DNA from: Vulcanisaeta moutnovskia 768-28
GTDB taxonomy: Archaea; Thermoproteota; Thermoprotei; Thermoproteales; Thermocladiaceae
NCBI RefSeq assembly: GCF_000190315.1
Contig: NC_015151.1
Location: 1,364,001-1,428,000, forward strand
DNA: 64,000 nt
Reading direction: 5' to 3'
Shown: positions 13,568 through 51,642 of the stretch, in pieces
Layout: the number at the start of each line of letters is the position of its first letter
How positions within the stretch are numbered: position 1 is the stretch's first letter
Program-made: the position numbers and the translations under genes
Notes under the pieces: generated by a model
What the model saw: the letters and a program-made list of their open reading frames with translations, nothing else
Database searches by the model: none
What the model was told of the DNA's origin: nothing

Positions 13568-13766
13568 CGCAATGCATGGGATAAATAATTGTGGGAACAA
13601 CTACAATAATAAGAAACTGAACACAAACATCAGAATAATAAATAATCTGACAAAACAATCGTAAGAACAAACACGTACCATAAACGTACATAGATATAAT
13701 TATTCCATTAATTAGCTCATATTCATGAAGAAAGACTTATAAATAAGCTTATAAAATAACGTCTTA
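13568..13766 (+). promoter_or_regulatory. CRISPR leader and array promoter
   Basis: This gene-free, strongly A/T-rich 199-bp stretch lies between csa3 and the first repeat. Two TATA-like boxes, CTTATAAATA at 13736-13745 and CTTATAAAAT at 13749-13758, end 8-21 bp before repeat 1, which would start transcription at or just inside the first repeats. The decayed repeat at the far end of the array confirms that the leader is on this side. New spacers would be added at 13766/13767. Confidence 0.75.
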
Positions 13767-15910
13767 GATATTCTCTAAAGAGAATAGAAGTATTGTTTCC
13801 TTCATATACGGCTGGGAGACACGTGATTCCACCGATATTCTCTAAAGAGAATAGAAGTGACATTGTTTTTCAACTTGCCAGTATCACGCCCGTCTCTGGA
13901 TATTCTCTAAAGAGAATAGAAGTCTGCAAGGTAATCAGCAAGTCAGTCAGCAAGTCAATCAAGGTAGGGCTACCGTGATATTCTCTAAAGAGAATAGAAG
14001 TGGACGAGCCGAAGCGTGCTGATGAAATACTCACGAGTGTTTTGATATTCTCTAAAGAGAATAGAAGTACGCCTTCACCCTATCACCAAGCGTGTAAAAA
14101 CCACCGTTCTTCGATATTCTCTAAAGAGAATAGAAGTATGTTTTCCTGACCCTCAAACCACGAGTACAGGTTGGGGATATTCTCTAAAGAGAATAGAAGT
14201 CGACTTCATTAGGGAGAACAAGGATGAAATCGTGAGGGTGCTGGACGAGGATATTCTCTAAAGAGAATAGAAGTTCACCACGGTGATTGTCTACACACTC
14301 ACCCTGCAGTTGAGGGGTGGATATTCTCTAAAGAGAATAGAAGTACAATGTGCTCGTGATTAACATATACCCCTCTAACCTAGGTCCGAGGGATATTCTC
14401 TAAAGAGAATAGAAGTGGAAGGAAGCCATGCAATTAATCAAGGGTTTAATAAACGTGAAGCGATATTCTCTAAAGAGAATAGAAGTAAAAAAATCACTGT
14501 GTGAAACTATGACTTTCTTACCATCCTTAGTGTAGATATTCTCTAAAGAGAATAGAAGTAAACTGCCCCTGCAATTGACTGCTCATTAACTGTAGTGACT
14601 GCACGGATATTCTCTAAAGAGAATAGAAGTCTCATTGCTGTACAGGTTAATGAATGCCTCGGCATTCCTGAGGACGTGATATTCTCTAAAGAGAATAGAA
14701 GTTCATTTCTGGGGTTTTGACCTTCCATTTGTACTGGGGTTGAAGTTCTGCCGGATATTCTCTAAAGAGAATAGAAGTCCACTCACGTAATCACCAACAC
14801 CATTATGGTTATTCGTTGCGATATTCTCTAAAGAGAATAGAAGTGCAGCCGCTAGACTACCCGCAATACCTGCAGCCTCACCAATCGTGGATATTCTCTA
14901 AAGAGAATAGAAGTATCAGATATATCCATCAACCTAGAGGCCGGAAGGTACGTGAACAGATATTCTCTAAAGAGAATAGAAGTCCGTGATTGTGCACGTC
15001 GCCCCCGTGGGGCTCGCCATGAGTATGGATATTCTCTAAAGAGAATAGAAGTGTAATCATTCCAAAGGAAAAGCCCATCATCATTAATGAAAACAATAAT
15101 GATATTCTCTAAAGAGAATAGAAGTGGAATCATTGCACATGAACATTACGGTGATGGTGCATGACGGTCATATTCGATATTCTCTAAAGAGAATAGAAGT
15201 TAACCGTCATGTTAAGCGTGAACACCGGCGCGGAGCTACTTGAACGATATTCTCTAAAGAGAATAGAAGTCTTGATGACACATAGATAAAATAAAGCAAT
15301 GCGATGTCAATCCCAATGACCTGATATTCTCTAAAGAGAATAGAAGTCTCTCCCTCTGCTTGAATACGTAGGGTACCTCGATGATCCTCGATATTCTCTA
15401 AAGAGAATAGAAGTACTTCACGTGCCCAAAGTGCGGGAAGCCAACCATAGGCTTTGCGCCCGATATTCTCTAAAGAGAATAGAAGTATTACAGTACTGCT
15501 TGTCGAAACAAAGCAGTAAGTCATGTATTTGATATTCTCTAAAGAGAATAGAAGTCATATTGGACAACGTAGCCCGAGCTTTCCAATCATTTCAGCACGG
15601 ATATTCTCTAAAGAGAATAGAAGTATCTTCGATATCCTCGAGCAGAAGAACAGCGAGCCCGGCGCGAACAGGATATTCTCTAAAGAGAATAGAAGGAATG
15701 ACCTCACTCCTACTTGGGAATAAGCCAGCGTATACGAGCCCATGATATTCTCTAAAGAGAATAGAAGGATACGCATCTACATTGATTTGGCAGTGGTTTA
15801 ACGTGACGTATAAGATATTCTCTAAAGAGAATAGAAGGATAAGAGCTACATACATAGACTTTGGAGGGATAGTTTGGCATATCACGATGTTTTCTGAAGA
15901 GGATGGAGGG
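13767..15910 (+). CRISPR. CRISPR array, type I-A: 30 intact repeats plus one decayed repeat, 30 spacers
   Basis: The 25-bp repeat begins GATATTCTC, has the inverted repeat ATTCTCT/AGAGAAT around a central AA, and ends AATAGAAGT. I located intact copies starting at 13767, 13834, 13899, 13977, 14044, 14113, 14176, 14250, 14320, 14392, 14462, 14535, 14606, 14678, 14754, 14820, 14890, 14959, 15028, 15101, 15176, 15246, 15323, 15390, 15462, 15531, 15600, 15672, 15744 and 15814. Spacers are 38-53 bp. The last three intact copies end in G instead of T, and the 31st copy (15886) is degenerate. The transcript should run on the plus strand, giving an AUAGAAGU-type 5' tag after Cas6 cutting. No two spacers look alike. 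Confidence 0.98.
15886..15910 (+). repeat. Degenerate terminal CRISPR repeat
   Basis: The 25 bases starting GATGTTTTCTGAAG match the repeat at 19 of 25 positions when compared with the last, G-ending repeat variant. The spacer before it is 47 bp, within the array's range. The six differences (repeat positions 4, 7, 11, 17, 20, 23) are all transitions, five of them A to G. It marks the trailer, leader-distal end and is probably no longer processed, as the hairpin arms no longer match. Confidence 0.85.
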
Positions 15911-24914: not shown

Positions 24915-26108
24915 CTAATCCTTAATCACTATCTTACTCATTATTAGTGATCTAATGGCCTCAGCATCAACCGCGTACTCCCTGGGTAGTGACTCAATGA
25001 ATTGAGAGACAACCTCATGTATTATTAGGTCCGTAACCTCATCCTTACTAATACCCCTAAGCCTCAGGTAATTAACCTGGTCCTCGTCTGGTGAGGCATC
25101 AGCCGCGCTGTGCCTAGCCCCATTAACATCACCAGTATCGACCATTATTATTGGCACCGAGGCTGCGTAGGCGCCCTCATTCATCACGAAGACCTTGCCC
25201 TCAACACTCGTGTCACTCCACCTTGCGCTATTCATTATCCTGCCCAGAGCCCTATGTATTATGAAGGACTTATCCCTGGCTATCCCCAGTACCCTTGAGT
25301 AACTCGTTCCATACTCACCAGTGTGTACCGCATTGATTTGGTAATCAATCCTTGAGGCTCCATAACCAATCTCAAGGCCTAGATGGTTTAGATTGCTTTT
25401 CCTGCCCTGGAGTAAGTAGTCCTCTCTGTGGTGGTTCATTGAGCCTCCCATTATTAATGAGCGGGCGTTTATTGATGATTCCTCACCAGCGATGACCTTA
25501 ATCAATGCATATGCAGGGACTTGCTCATGAATGTCTGTGAATAATACATTCAATTTAGAACCCCTCCCTAGGTAGACCTCGACCGTGGTTGATGGGCAAC
25601 CCCCAGAACCAATTGTGAATAGGCCTAGTGATGCTGTGACACCATCATTAACAAGCACCGTGTAGTGTGTTGGTAATAGCATGGGCTTCTCTGTTGAGGT
25701 TATAATGCCTATTCTGAGAGGTTCGTTTAAATCCTCATTGATCTCCACGTATGCGCCATCCACGAGGTTGGCAACGTGCCTGGCAATGGCCCTGGATTCG
25801 GAAATATCAATTGACCTAAATAGTAATTTACCTAGTTCCTCACCTAGTTCGTTAATGCTTATTACGTGGGTACCTCTTGGTATCTTCGTAATGCCTATGC
25901 CACCGTTTACTGAGACAATATTGGGTTCATAGGGTATATTGGTGGTTAATGGGGCGTGGTGGATCTCCATGGTTGGGTCAATACACTTCTCAAAGGCGCC
26001 CCAGTCCGTGTAGTACTTAATCGATGGTGAATCCTTAATTTGTTGGTAGGGTATTTTCTGGGCAAGCTCCCTGGCCCTAAGCTTCAATTCATCAAGCCAC
26101 TTAACCAT
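24915..26108 (-). CDS. sufD: SufD-like Fe-S cluster scaffold subunit
   Basis: SufD pairs with SufB in the SufBC2D scaffold that assembles iron-sulfur clusters. The 397-residue protein has the long right-handed beta-helix core (residues about 90-330) and the closing segment DTGDVNGARHSAADASPDEDQVNYLRLRGISKDEVTDLIIHEVV. It keeps the conserved histidine (GARHSA) that corresponds to the SufD interface histidine, and lacks the SufB cysteine. It is the third gene of a run with two sufB-like genes. Identity as SufD rather than a third SufB rests on length and the missing cysteine. Confidence 0.8.
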   Translation of the reverse strand: MVKWLDELKLRARELAQKIPYQQIKDSPSIKYYTDWGAFEKCIDPTMEIHHAPLTTNIPYEPNIVSVNGGIGITKIPRGTHVISINELGEELGKLLFRSIDISESRAIARHVANLVDGAYVEINEDLNEPLRIGIITSTEKPMLLPTHYTVLVNDGVTASLGLFTIGSGGCPSTTVEVYLGRGSKLNVLFTDIHEQVPAYALIKVIAGEESSINARSLIMGGSMNHHREDYLLQGRKSNLNHLGLEIGYGASRIDYQINAVHTGEYGTSYSRVLGIARDKSFIIHRALGRIMNSARWSDTSVEGKVFVMNEGAYAASVPIIMVDTGDVNGARHSAADASPDEDQVNYLRLRGISKDEVTDLIIHEVVSQFIESLPREYAVDAEAIRSLIMSKIVIKD

Positions 26109-26142: not shown

Positions 26143-27576
26143 TCATCCTACCTTAGATAACTTACTGAATTCGAGTTCAATAACCCTATTTAGCGTCATT
26201 GCGTACTCAGTGGGTAGGCGAACGGTTATGTCCTGGATAAAACCAAGCACTATCAGGCTCCTGGCGGTTCCCTCATCGAAACCACGACTACGTAGGTAAA
26301 ACAACTTGTCCTCGCTTATTCTTCCTGTATAGGCTTCGTGGGTAACTGTGGCGGTATCCTCAAACACTTGGTCGTGGGGTATTGTGTAGGCCCTTGACTT
26401 ATCATCAAGTATTAATGAGTCGCATGATACTGAGGATCTCGTGTACTTAGCGCCCTCCCTAACATAAACCAGACCCCTATAAACCACTGTGCCTCCATTA
26501 ATACTTACGCTCTTATTAACAATCTTGCTTGAAGTCCTTGGTGCATCATGGTATGCCTTAGCCCCATTCTCCTTCCAGAATGGCCCATTGGCTATGGTAA
26601 CGCCTATAATGCTCGTCCTGGCACCCTCACCCTTGAGTACCGTGCTTGGGTACGTATAACTAACTTTACTACCTAGGCTACCCTCAACCCACTCAACCGT
26701 CGAGTTCTCCATGGCCAACGCCCTCTTATTATTAAAATTAATAATGTTCCTACTCCAGTTCTGTATTGTGTTAATCCTTAGGTGGGCATTCCTCGCCGCA
26801 TAGCCCTCAACCATACCATCATGGAAACTAAAGCCCTTGTAAACGGGAGCTGCGCAACCCTCAAGCCACTCAACACTTGCGCCCTCATCAGCAATTATTA
26901 ATGAGTGCTCGAACTGACCTTCACCAGAACTACCTATTAGGAAGAAGGATTCTATGGGCATGTCGAGCTTGACACCAGGTGGTACATAGACGAATGTACC
27001 GCCACTCCATAAAGCAACATGCAATGCCGCGAACTTGTGCTCGCCAGGTGGGAATATTCTTGAGAAGTACTGCTTTACTAGGTCAGGATACCTCTTGACA
27101 GCCTCATCCATTGTGGTCACCACAGCCCCCTTCTCCTCAAGGTACTTCTTTACATGTAGGTAAACAACCTCAGAATCAAATTGGCCAAGTAATCCAGCCA
27201 GCACCCTGGCCTCTAGTTCAGGCATGCCTAAGGCCTCATAGTACTTTCTAATCTCCTTGGGTACGTCGTCCCAAGACCCAGCCTTCTCCACACTGGGTTT
27301 GGCGTAGAGTACCAGGGACTCCAGGTCAATCTCCTCCTTAATAGGCAACCACTTAGGCTCTGGCAACTTCTCGAACATTTCAAGGGCCCTAAGCCTAAGT
27401 CTCCTCATCCAATCAGGCTCACCCTTAATTCTACTAATTTCCTCAATCATATCCTTAGTAATTCTACCCCTAATGACGGCCTCCCAGGGCAACCTCTCCA
27501 TTTCCGGCCCAAGTAACTCCTCAACCGAGCTTTTCTCAATAACGGTCTTCAAAGACTCTGTCGATTCACTAACCAT
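26143..27576 (-). CDS. sufB: SufB, Fe-S cluster scaffold (copy 1)
   Basis: SufB accepts sulfur and builds the cluster with SufC and SufD. From the ATG at 27576 it has 477 residues. The family N-terminus (IRGRITKDMIEEISRIKGEPDWMRRLRLRALEMFEKLP), the PPGVKLDMPIE turn and the C-terminal SVSCDSLILDD...VTHEAYTGRISEDKLFYLRSRG block are present, with the essential cysteine (C385) and glutamate (E414) both conserved. GGTGACACTG before the ATG is the probable ribosome-binding sequence; a GTG at 27585 is possible. It lies 57 bp downstream of a close paralogue. Confidence 0.92.
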   Translation of the reverse strand: MVSESTESLKTVIEKSSVEELLGPEMERLPWEAVIRGRITKDMIEEISRIKGEPDWMRRLRLRALEMFEKLPEPKWLPIKEEIDLESLVLYAKPSVEKAGSWDDVPKEIRKYYEALGMPELEARVLAGLLGQFDSEVVYLHVKKYLEEKGAVVTTMDEAVKRYPDLVKQYFSRIFPPGEHKFAALHVALWSGGTFVYVPPGVKLDMPIESFFLIGSSGEGQFEHSLIIADEGASVEWLEGCAAPVYKGFSFHDGMVEGYAARNAHLRINTIQNWSRNIINFNNKRALAMENSTVEWVEGSLGSKVSYTYPSTVLKGEGARTSIIGVTIANGPFWKENGAKAYHDAPRTSSKIVNKSVSINGGTVVYRGLVYVREGAKYTRSSVSCDSLILDDKSRAYTIPHDQVFEDTATVTHEAYTGRISEDKLFYLRSRGFDEGTARSLIVLGFIQDITVRLPTEYAMTLNRVIELEFSKLSKVG

Positions 27577-27642
27577 CAGTGTCACCGAACTCCTCTACTG
27601 TGGTTCTTTAAAAACCGGTTCCGGGAAATAAAATATAATGAA

Positions 27643-29064
27643 CTACCCAACACCGCCCATCCTCGAGAGCTCAAGCTCAATGGCCCTATTGAAAATGGAC
27701 ATGTACTCAACGGGTAGGTTAATCATAACGTCATGGAAATAACCAAGGACTATTAAGCTACGGGCCTCTTCCTCACTAAGGCCACGACTACGTAAGTAGA
27801 ACAACTTATCCTCACCAATCCTCCCAGTATAGGCCTCGTGAGTCACGGTTGCCGTCTCCTCAAAAACCTGCTCATGGGGTATTGTGTAAGCCTTGGAATT
27901 ATCATCCAGAATAAGTGATTCACAACTGACAGAGGACTTAGCGTATCTGGCACCGTCCCTAACATACACGAGACCCCTATACACCGAAGTACCGCCGTTG
28001 AGACTAACGCCCTTACTAACAACCTTACTATACGTGTGCGGTGCACTATGGAATACCTTGGCCCCCTCCTCCTTCCACGTTGGCCCATTAGCAAGGGCAA
28101 CACTTGTTATTGTCGTCCTCGCATTAACACCCTTAAGAACACTCATTGGGTACACAATCGTTACCTTACCACCCAGGGAACCACTCAACCAATCAACACT
28201 TGCGTTATCCTCAATAATAGCCCTATTATTGCCAAAGTAAATAACATCCTTACTCCAGTTCTTTAGGTCTATGAGCCTAACCCTAGCGCCCCTGTGTATG
28301 TATGCCTCGGTCATACCATCATGAAGACTAAGCCCAGTGAATACTGGTGCTGCGCAGGCAACTATGAACTCAGCACTTGCGCCCTCACCAACAATAACTA
28401 GTGAATGCTCAAACTGCCCAACACCAGCACTACTTATTAGTATGACTAGTTCAATGGGCATCTTAACATGGACACCAGGCGGCACGTAGACAAACACACC
28501 ACCGCCCCAAAGGGCTATGTTTAACGACGCGAACTTATACTCCGGCGGAAAAACCCTAGCGAAGTACTGCTTTACCAGGTCTGGATACCTCTTGACAGCC
28601 TCGTCCATGCTCATTGCAATGACCCCGGCCTTCTCAAGATCCTTCTTAATGCTCTCGTAGGTGATCCCACCATCGACCTGCCCAATAACCCCAGCCAGTA
28701 CCTTAGCCTCTAGTTCAGGTATTCTCAGCGTCTCATAATACTCCCTCAACTCCCTGGGTAATTCATCCCATGACCTAGCCCTCTCAACACTGGGCTTTGC
28801 GTAGAGAACGAGAGATTCAAGGTCAATGTTACCCTCAAGCGGAAGCCAGTTAGGCCAGGGCTGCTTCTCGAACATTTCAAGGGCCCTAAGCCTAAGCCTC
28901 CTCATCCAATCAGGCTCACCCCTAACCCTGCTTATTTCCTCAACGACATCCCTCGTGATCCTACCCCTAATCTCCACCTCCCACTTGATGGGCCTTGCAT
29001 GGCCCAATATGCTTGAGAGTTCGTTCGTCCTTGTGATCTCGAGTTTAACACCATCCCTACTCAT
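27643..29064 (-). CDS. sufB: SufB paralogue (copy 2)
   Basis: This 473-residue protein is a close paralogue of the next gene and aligns along its whole length: both share the RITRDVVEEISRVRGEPDWMRR segment, PPGVHVKMPIE, and the C-terminal SVSCESLILDDNSKAYTIPHEQVFEE block. The cluster-assembly cysteine (C381) and glutamate (E410) are retained, so it is not simply a SufD. It is the first gene of the sufB-sufB-sufD run and diverges from sufC. GGAG stands 5-8 bases before the start codon. Whether the two SufBs form distinct complexes is not known. Confidence 0.9.
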   Translation of the reverse strand: MSRDGVKLEITRTNELSSILGHARPIKWEVEIRGRITRDVVEEISRVRGEPDWMRRLRLRALEMFEKQPWPNWLPLEGNIDLESLVLYAKPSVERARSWDELPRELREYYETLRIPELEAKVLAGVIGQVDGGITYESIKKDLEKAGVIAMSMDEAVKRYPDLVKQYFARVFPPEYKFASLNIALWGGGVFVYVPPGVHVKMPIELVILISSAGVGQFEHSLVIVGEGASAEFIVACAAPVFTGLSLHDGMTEAYIHRGARVRLIDLKNWSKDVIYFGNNRAIIEDNASVDWLSGSLGGKVTIVYPMSVLKGVNARTTITSVALANGPTWKEEGAKVFHSAPHTYSKVVSKGVSLNGGTSVYRGLVYVRDGARYAKSSVSCESLILDDNSKAYTIPHEQVFEETATVTHEAYTGRIGEDKLFYLRSRGLSEEEARSLIVLGYFHDVMINLPVEYMSIFNRAIELELSRMGGVG

Positions 29065-29143
29065 GATTGTCTCCTATATTGCGTTATAATTTTACATAAC
29101 TATTAAGCTTTCTATTGATTGGTTCACATAGACACTGCCGAAA

Positions 29144-29154
29144 AGTTTTTAATC
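29144..29154 (+). promoter_or_regulatory. TATA box of sufC
   Basis: AGTTTTTAATC is centred 33 bp before the ATG at 29182. It lies inside the upstream extension of the open frame (start at 29119), so that longer start would be transcribed only in part. This fixes the sufC start at 29182. Confidence 0.55.
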
Positions 29155-29181
29155 AGTGTCACAGAGGTTACGCGACCAATA

Positions 29182-29946
29182 ATGGCAAGGCTTGATGTGA
29201 TTGATCTAAGTGTTGAGGTTGATGGTAAGAGGATACTAAATAATGTTAACCTAACCGTTGAGTCAGGGGAGGTTGTTGCCATAATGGGGCCAAACGGTAG
29301 TGGAAAGACCACACTCTTCCTAACAATTGCTGGTCATCCGAGGTATAATGTGGTCAATGGTGATATTAGGCTTGATGGCGAGTCAATACTAAAGCTATAC
29401 CCTGAAGAGAGGGTTCAGAGGGGTGTATTGCTTGCCCTGCAGAGCCCCACTCCCGTCCCTGAGGTTAGGTTATCGACTTTAATAACTGCAATGCTAAATA
29501 AGAAGGCTGGCAAGCGCATAACTGATCCACCGCCACCGCAGGCCATTGCTGAAATGACGAAGCTAACCACGGAGCTTGGTCTAAGGCCTGAGCATTTGAC
29601 GAGGGGTGTGCATGCTGGATTTAGTGGTGGTGAGTCTAAGAGGGCTGAGATGCTTCAACTCCTTATGTACAGGCCTAAGGTAGCCATGCTTGATGAGCCT
29701 GATTCGGGTCTTGATGTTGATGGTATAGCCATAATAGGTAGGTCAATAGCTAGGCTTGCCCAGGAGGGTACGGCAATACTAGTCACCACGCATCATGCGG
29801 AAATACTTCATTACGTTAAGCCTACCCGCGTCGTTGTGATGGCTAGGGGTTCCGTGGTTCACGTTGGTGGGGAGGAGGTTGTTAAGATGATTGAGTCCAT
29901 GGGCTATGAAAGGTTCTTTAGGGATGTAGTGAAATTGAATGCATAA
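29182..29946 (+). CDS. sufC: SufC ABC-type ATPase
   Basis: SufC is the ATPase of the SufBCD complex. The 254-residue protein has Walker A GPNGSGKTT (36-44), the Q-loop in LLALQSPTPVPEV, the ABC signature FSGGESKRAEML (rather than LSGGQ, as usual for SufC), Walker B KVAMLDEPDSGLDVDG, and the switch histidine in VTTHHAEIL. It is transcribed divergently from sufB-sufB-sufD across a gap that holds promoters for both sides. Confidence 0.94.
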   Translation: MARLDVIDLSVEVDGKRILNNVNLTVESGEVVAIMGPNGSGKTTLFLTIAGHPRYNVVNGDIRLDGESILKLYPEERVQRGVLLALQSPTPVPEVRLSTLITAMLNKKAGKRITDPPPPQAIAEMTKLTTELGLRPEHLTRGVHAGFSGGESKRAEMLQLLMYRPKVAMLDEPDSGLDVDGIAIIGRSIARLAQEGTAILVTTHHAEILHYVKPTRVVVMARGSVVHVGGEEVVKMIESMGYERFFRDVVKLNA

Positions 29947-50432: not shown

Positions 50433-50729
50433 CTAGGTTGTTCCTTCCTCGGTGGTCTTACTCGTGTTTATCCTTTTCTCGAGTAACTTAACTTCATAAT
50501 CAATATTCACGAGGTATTCCCAAAGTGCGTCGAGTGCCTCGTCCTTATCCACGAGATCCAGCTTAGCCTCAATAATAGCCCTAAATGCGCAGTCAAGGAA
50601 CTTATCAAGGCATATACCCGGGCACTTAAGGACTTTTTTCACGTACTTTTTATATTCAGTTTTGTTTAAATTGTTTTCTATTTCAAATAAAATAAAAAAA
50701 TAGAAAATACCCCATATAATACACACCAC
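50433..50729 (-). CDS. Hypothetical small protein with hydrophobic N-terminus
   Basis: This 98-codon frame starts with GTG at 50729 and begins with a short hydrophobic stretch (VCIIWGIFYFFILF) followed by charged helices (LDKFLDCAFRAIIEAKLDLVDKDEALDALWEYLVNIDYEVKLLEKR). A TATA-like stretch lies about 26 bp before the GTG. The sequence after residue 20 looks like a genuine helical domain; the N-terminal part lies in very A/T-rich DNA and may not be translated. No family recognised. Confidence 0.4.
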   Translation of the reverse strand: MVCIIWGIFYFFILFEIENNLNKTEYKKYVKKVLKCPGICLDKFLDCAFRAIIEAKLDLVDKDEALDALWEYLVNIDYEVKLLEKRINTSKTTEEGTT

Positions 50730-50825
50730 ACTTGTATTTCATAAAGAATTCATAAATAATATAAACAATATCAATTAGGGTAATTAATATAAATATAATA
50801 GAGAACACATTATTAGGCCTATACC

Positions 50826-50921
50826 TGCCTTGCATTCACGTCATTAGTACGAGGCCCAACGACCCGGCCAAAACCGGGCCGCTGAGCCCCGTACTAATGG
50901 TGTGGATGCATGCAGGGGGCA
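50826..50921 (+). ncRNA. Candidate structured RNA, long hairpin, unassigned
   Basis: The sequence can fold into one long hairpin. A continuous 21-bp stem forms between 50831-50851 and 50890-50910 (three G-T pairs), with the perfect 10-bp block CATTAGTACG/CGTACTAATG. Above it are GGC/GCC, a 7x7 internal loop (CCAACGA against CCGCTGA), and an apical hairpin CCCGG-CCAAAA-CCGGG. TGCC and GGCA close the base after a bulge. The element is far more GC-rich than its flanks, lacks an open frame, and follows a TATA-like TTAATATAAATATA at 50784-50797. It matches no RNA class I know (not 5S, SRP, RNase P, C/D or standard H/ACA). Confidence 0.55.
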
Positions 50922-51078
50922 AATCCTTAATTACTATGCATTGTTATCACCGTATATTTTTACGCTTGCCTTTGTCGTTTCTTGAGGTTGTTGGGTTTGT
51001 ATTGTTTAATTAATTTTAATAAATTGTTTCCTGTGGTGAGGAAAGCCTTTTAACATTATTATTTCAATAATTTGATTA

Positions 51079-51642
51079 ATGGAGTTCCTGGTCCTTAATT
51101 GGCAGAGACTTACGGATTTGGCGCTTGACTTGTCATTAATGATTAGGGACTCTGGCTATAGGCCTGACTCAGTGGTTGCAATCCTTAGGGGTGGTTACAT
51201 GGTGGGTAAGCTTGTCTCTGATTTCTTGGGTGTTGAGGATTTGGTGGTCCTTGGCTTAACGAGTTATGGGACTAGGGTTGGTCAGGGTGAGGAACCCATT
51301 ATTACTTACCCAATAATACATGACCTAAGGGGTAGGAGTGCGTTGATTGTTGATGATGTTGCTGATACAGGTAAAACCTTAGCAGCTGCTAAGGATTTGC
51401 TTAGGTTCTATGGTGCTGGGGAGGTGAGGACTGCGACCCTCTATGTGAAGCCGTGGTCAAGAGTCAAGCCTAATTATTATGTGGATACTACGGATAGGTG
51501 GATAGTGTTTCCATGGGAGGTTGGTGAAGTCGTTAGGAATAGGCTTCGTGATCTAGACCTGGACCACATTGTTAATGAACTAGACTTGGTTCATTATTTC
51601 GGTGAGGACTTCGTAAATAAGCTCATAAAGTTACTCCACTGA
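51079..51642 (+). CDS. Purine-type phosphoribosyltransferase
   Basis: This 187-residue type I PRTase salvages a base with PRPP. The PRPP-binding signature is ALIVDDVADTGKTLAAAKDLL (about residues 95-115), and the PPi loop is AILRGGYMVGKL (33-44). The hood LYVKPWSRVKPNYYVDTTDRWIVFPWE is characteristic of the archaeal and bacterial xanthine/hypoxanthine-guanine group. It stands beside the two GMP synthetase genes, which supports a purine substrate (xanthine, guanine or hypoxanthine). It is convergent with guaAb with no gap. Confidence 0.88.
   Translation: MEFLVLNWQRLTDLALDLSLMIRDSGYRPDSVVAILRGGYMVGKLVSDFLGVEDLVVLGLTSYGTRVGQGEEPIITYPIIHDLRGRSALIVDDVADTGKTLAAAKDLLRFYGAGEVRTATLYVKPWSRVKPNYYVDTTDRWIVFPWEVGEVVRNRLRDLDLDHIVNELDLVHYFGEDFVNKLIKLLH

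Follow-up and report, generated by a model that had tools for sequence, protein, structure and literature searches.

Comparative analysis of a 64,000-nucleotide stretch of DNA from a single-contig Vulcanisaeta-like genome (the window; G000:C1:1364001-1428000) suggests that these hyperthermophilic archaea may carry a chromosomal two-RNA switch, in which the hairpin of a small RNA (RNA-A) would be opened via strand displacement by a separately encoded antisense RNA (RNA-B), the match between the two being kept by coevolution across at least three genera and neither RNA acting on a neighbouring gene. This account as a whole has about an even chance of being right, and the narrower proposition of RNA-B as an antisense small RNA dedicated to RNA-A, for which it would be a titratable off-switch (or a conformational switch), is rather probable on the comparative evidence.

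The GC-rich hairpin reported by the initial annotation at 50826-50921 of the window is borne out by folding, as the region 50820-50930 has a folding energy of -60.6 kcal/mol where shuffled sequences average -33.2 (z -7.4) and none of 200 shuffles is as good; the hairpin at 50817-50921 is genuine and well past chance. Its annotated 21-bp stem is present with all pairs perfect (50831-50851 with 50890-50910), and the bounds were corrected to an earlier start, 50817-50921, because CCTGC:GCAGG and GCCT:GGGC lie below that stem. The lower stem runs in the order GCCT:GGGC, a conserved 3-nt ATA bulge (50821-50823), CCTGC:GCAGG, a small CT/T loop and the 21 perfect pairs. RNA-A is described here as a structured non-coding RNA of about 105 nt forming one long hairpin on the plus strand (50817..50921), on the grounds of its fold, an identical copy, homologues and covariation. 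Along the same strand, the 5' arm of the lower stem (50817..50839), placed by folds and covariation counts, comprises GCCT, the ATA bulge, CCTGC, an unpaired CT and TGCATTCAC; the upper hairpin (50840..50889), with the CCAACGA/CCGCTGA mismatch region and a CCCGG-CCAAAA-CCGGG apex, varies in length and sequence among the aligned genomes; and the 3' arm TGGTGTGGATGCATGCAGGGGGCA (50898..50921) can pair in cis with the 5' arm and in trans with RNA-B, the latter over 25 uninterrupted pairs. The predicted fold pairs most of what had been read as a 7x7 internal loop, CCAACGA/CCGCTGA (50856-50862/50879-50885), leaving A.C oppositions that become G.U pairs in the relative G009, and the region is wholly replaced in homologues outside Vulcanisaeta. 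The upper internal loop in two other genera, g2 and g4 (L082, L084, L085, L081, L170), is GAAA(G/A)...AAGUA-like and resembles a bulged-G (loop E) motif, from which the Vulcanisaeta upper loop differs.

The minus strand at the hairpin folds better than the plus strand (-72.2), and the strand of RNA-A was therefore settled by comparison. It is assigned to the plus strand because U.G pairs are kept in the lower stem, e.g. UU:GG in GCAUUCAC:GUGGGUGC, and TATA-like boxes lie upstream, preceding the GCCC 5' end in most RNA-A copies of relatives. In the window, the TATA box of the initial annotation corresponds to the TATA-like TATAAATA (50788..50795, plus strand), identified from its sequence and centred about 25 nt before 50817. 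A coding role was discarded, a short ATG frame in the 3' arm being absent from G011 and G014 by inspection. Upstream of RNA-A there is a 98-aa open frame on the minus strand (window 50433-50729) with no Pfam match. Farther away, the window holds a CRISPR-like array (13742-15852; GATATTCTCTAAAGAGAATAGAAG(T/G) repeated about 30 times between spacers, at a spacing of about 63-78 nt) and, by eye, tandem duplicated SufB-like genes (26143-29064; 480 and 473 aa, with stretches of DNA that are about 71-78% alike) adjoining an ABC ATPase (29119-29946, SufC-like) and a SufD-like gene (24915-26108).

Homologues of RNA-A were found in 17 further genomes by BLAST and covariance models. A model built from Vulcanisaeta copies alone retrieved homologues in g2 (four genomes), which is taken to be Caldivirga, and in g4 (one genome), and a broader model, to which g2, g4 and the divergent G011 copy had been added, retrieved two more g4 copies (G017 and G020); covariance-model searches found no RNA-A in a third genus of the same family, g3, or in other families of the order or class. 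The initial annotation had proposed a covariation check in relatives, and compensatory changes are indeed found: in a nine-sequence structural alignment, 94.9% of cells are paired (33-54% in slid controls) and both-sided changes occur at 12 of 34 pairs, observed values that none of 500 shuffles reaches, in an alignment that was fitted to the covariance model and is biased towards it. When the lower stem of 13 sequences was aligned separately by hand, 302 of 308 cells were paired and both-sided changes occurred at 8 of 24 pairs. Most Vulcanisaeta genomes carry one to three copies, mostly at corresponding loci, and the copies are usually near-identical within one genome despite differing flanks; in the window's genome the second copy (G000:C1:335998-336102) is 100% identical, with identity spanning 117 bp (335997-336113), and lies in a different context, upstream of a pyruvate:ferredoxin oxidoreductase-like operon (function assigned by eye, without a family search). 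To judge by these patterns, the copies show concerted evolution, like duplicated stable-RNA genes. Synteny of this second locus with the g2 pyrophosphatase locus was ruled out as a chance TTTATGGGAATA match, the gene there being a member of the pyruvate:ferredoxin oxidoreductase-like operon.

A search of Rfam 15 with the RNA-A and RNA-B loci gave nothing above the gathering threshold, in agreement with the annotated view that no known class fits RNA-A, and at E values up to 10 its hits were sub-threshold hairpins attributable to chance and tRNA genes at other places in the loci. RNase P RNA (type T) and archaeal SRP RNA were rejected as identities for RNA-A, the genome's own copies lying elsewhere (G000:C1:1564859-1565061 and 1732648-1732970); both were likewise found away from RNA-A in G012 and G014. 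Viral origin was also discarded, as the RNA-B and 5'-arm patterns had no match in the viral contigs searched. The suggestion of a new small RNA has gained support from covariation, from promoter-like boxes, from the presence of several copies among unrelated genes and from the lack of an Rfam family, and, judged from sequence comparison, RNA-A is a conserved free-standing small-RNA gene.

BLAST searches with RNA-A also matched a short stretch elsewhere in most genomes, over the 3' arm only. This stretch belongs to RNA-B, a candidate small RNA gene with predicted promoter and terminator, which in the window's genome lies outside the window on the minus strand (G000:C1 ~932143-932198). In Vulcanisaeta it stands at the 3' end of a metallophosphoesterase gene, once per genome (it was not found in the incomplete genome G005), and in g2 and g4 it stands immediately upstream of RNA-A, in tandem and on one strand. 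Its architecture consists of an AT-rich TATA-like box, a 5' segment (about 22 nt) and a hairpin that is rich in GC and variable in sequence. The box reads AACCAATACTAATAAATTAAT in Vulcanisaeta and AACTGATAGTTTTAAATTAATG in g2, with a GCCCC or GACCCC start 24-28 nt later; in 16 of 18 loci its centre lies at about -24 to -28. Nearly all of the 18 loci have a GC-rich hairpin of at least 10 bp, that of G001 having just six uninterrupted pairs; a U-run follows the hairpin in several tandem loci, and no clear U-run follows those of Vulcanisaeta. A plain MAFFT alignment of RNA-B misaligns the hairpins and was excluded from the counts. The reading of RNA-B as a 3'-UTR motif of the metallophosphoesterase mRNA was ruled out by the conserved TATA-like box and by the G.U pattern on the other strand. 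Directly upstream of RNA-B lies a conserved small protein of 91-96 aa (L017 1246-1536, L144 1185-1460; no Pfam match for the L017 copy), following a gene whose end is, by eye, like a DNA primase large subunit. The RNA-A G-run and RNA-B C-run vary in length in some draft assemblies (L030, L031, L032, L037, L038, L171), which may be homopolymer sequencing error.

The 5' segment of RNA-B is the complement of the RNA-A 3' arm of the same genome. An uninterrupted trans duplex of 17-25 bp is predicted in 14 of the 15 genomes tested (17 bp in G017, 20 in G020, and 19-25 in the genomes of Vulcanisaeta and g2), G014 having 16 with a small loop, and in all 15 this duplex has greater stability and fewer interruptions than the pairing between RNA-A's own arms. 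In cofolding, the hybrid is preferred to the two separately folded RNAs by 6-24 kcal/mol at 37 C, and extrapolating the same parameters to 85 C leaves that preference in place. The mean energy of the trans duplexes is -50.3 kcal/mol for RNAs of one genome and -39.4 when the pairs are permuted; none of 50,000 permutations reached the observed mean, a figure inflated by the relatedness of the genomes, whose counts are not independent. Stronger evidence than this number comes from the divergent genomes. In G011 the RNA-A 3' arm is very different (GTGGCTGGGCACGCACGGGGGC); the RNA-B gene there has the usual syntenic position next to the phosphoesterase and a similar box, and its sequence has changed to match the RNA-A of that genome with one G.U. 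G017 and G020 have a further distinct 3' arm, which their RNA-B matches over 17-20 pairs while the runs between the arms of RNA-A itself are at most 6; here the covariance model first identified RNA-A, and an RNA-B carrying a new complementary sequence was recognised upstream afterwards. Comparison of the genomes shows RNA-B and the RNA-A 3' arm changing together with their pairing kept, which is the extended complementarity through sequence change that marks an antisense/target pair. RNA-A is likely the only target of RNA-B, because no other well-matched site was found in the genomes searched and the segment changes with RNA-A.

Joint change of this kind could also come about if RNA-A and RNA-B were parts of one particle, with a protein-held trans duplex as the functional form and no control of one by the other. 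Pairing that is kept although the sequences change would suit such a particle, the tandem order in two genera would favour co-assembly, and RNA-B has no other target of similar complementarity in its genome. The switch is nevertheless the better fit to two observations, namely that RNA-A retains a covarying cis stem competing with the trans duplex and that most Vulcanisaeta have 2-3 copies of RNA-A against a single RNA-B, and we regard the particle as unlikely.

The differences between the two RNAs bear on a second explanation, in which the shared 20-25 bp are kept alike by gene conversion or by a role at the DNA level, the inverted repeats being recombination or protein-binding sites, and no RNA pairing is involved. 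Gene conversion across this stretch might indeed carry changes between the RNA-A and RNA-B loci; the RNA-A copies are homogenised within the window's genome, and the two segments form an inverted repeat in the tandem loci. Against this, eight departures from exact complementarity occur within the first 16 positions of RNA-B and all of them keep pairing as G.U on the inferred strands, the mismatches being located at the distal end of the duplex. The chance of such an outcome is about 0.0003-0.015, depending on the assumed transition bias, and the pattern is supportive, not conclusive, of RNA pairing on those strands. A hairpin and TATA-like box are moreover kept beside the RNA-B segment, and the two loci are hundreds of kilobases apart in the window's genome. 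A purely DNA-level origin of the match thus appears doubtful, slightly more so than the particle.

Under a third explanation, RNA-A would be an independent protein-binding RNA whose 5' arm is mimicked by RNA-B, the two competing for one protein and forming no duplex. A GCCC start is common to both RNAs in many genomes, and the RNA-B of Vulcanisaeta is similar to the 5' arm. In G017 and G020, however, it is the complement of the 3' arm that RNA-B matches, and its likeness to the 5' arm, whose pairing has decayed to 6-bp runs, is gone; RNA-B therefore tracks the 3' arm and not the 5' arm, and competition by mimicry is improbable.

Finally, RNA-A as a pseudouridine or methylation guide, or as a leader of the phosphoribosyltransferase gene downstream, is very improbable and largely refuted: the upper stem does have an internal mismatch region and a same-strand gene does follow, but that region is not conserved between genera, and the gene has its own box. 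H/ACA(-like) guides have an upper-stem K-turn or K-loop that is bound by L7Ae (PMC4652768). RNA-A resembles the crenarchaeal guides of this kind in being a single hairpin with an internal mismatch region and differs from them in its non-conserved loop, which other genera replace, in having neither K-turn nor K-loop (inspection of Vulcanisaeta RNA-A shows no 3-nt bulge flanked by tandem G.A pairs) and in having no ACA (ANA) box, its 3' end being GGGGGCAAATCC or GGGGGUUAAUCC with no ACA beside the stem; the guide-like pocket CCAACGA/CCGCTGA suggested earlier is abandoned on these grounds. The annotated leader role fares no better, because the phosphoribosyltransferase gene (51079-51642, plus strand; Pfam PF00156) carries the promoter-like box GGAAAGCCTTTTAACA (51040..51055, plus strand), called from sequence and recurring at relatives' copies of the locus, about 28 nt before its ATG. 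Other RNA-A copies adjoin different genes, so that the element does not sit in the 5' UTR of this gene at all copies.

In the two-RNA switch that we prefer, RNA-A would be a free-standing hairpin RNA made from its own promoter. The unstructured 5' segment of RNA-B (about 22 nt) would pair along the 3' strand of the RNA-A lower stem and replace the imperfect 5' arm, with its conserved bulge and small loops, whereupon the hairpin would open and the 5' arm would be freed. Invasion may be slow and would require a toehold, since RNA-A alone is very stable. From the comparative record we infer that both RNAs are transcribed and meet in the cell, that RNA-B acts on RNA-A and not the reverse, and that the pair has a physiological role.

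The proposed pair has parallels among known systems. In the plasmid antisense pairs ColE1 RNAI-RNAII and R1 CopA-CopT, the two RNAs come from opposite strands of the same DNA and their complementarity is automatic. Like them, RNA-A and RNA-B are both structured and non-coding and have complementary parts that change in concert, one being the proposed dedicated antisense partner; unlike them they are chromosomal and archaeal, involve no plasmid replication gene and have separate genes, so that selection or copying has to account for the complementarity. Bacterial sponge or anti-small RNAs have another small RNA as their main partner, as RNA-B would have RNA-A, whereas no mRNA target is known for RNA-A or RNA-B and the proposed target is the stem of a closed hairpin. 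Closer by lineage, sRNA162, sRNA154 and sRNA41 of Methanosarcina act in trans on target mRNAs (PMC3510493, PMC5867862); they share with RNA-A and RNA-B an intergenic archaeal origin and regulation by base pairing, proposed for our pair, and differ in that the sole well-matched partner found for RNA-B is another small RNA.

For most intergenic small RNAs of archaea no target is known (PMC5867862), and our literature search, which covered few subscription journals, found no report of RNA-A or of such an archaeal RNA/anti-RNA pair. Here, sequence coevolution alone points to the partner of an archaeal small RNA, and that partner is another small RNA. If the proposal is true, the pair would serve directly as a system in which to test RNA-RNA regulation and strand exchange at 80-90 C, and coevolution of paired RNAs would be usable for finding RNA partners; RNA-A and RNA-B would then constitute two new RNA families of the Vulcanisaeta-Caldivirga lineage.
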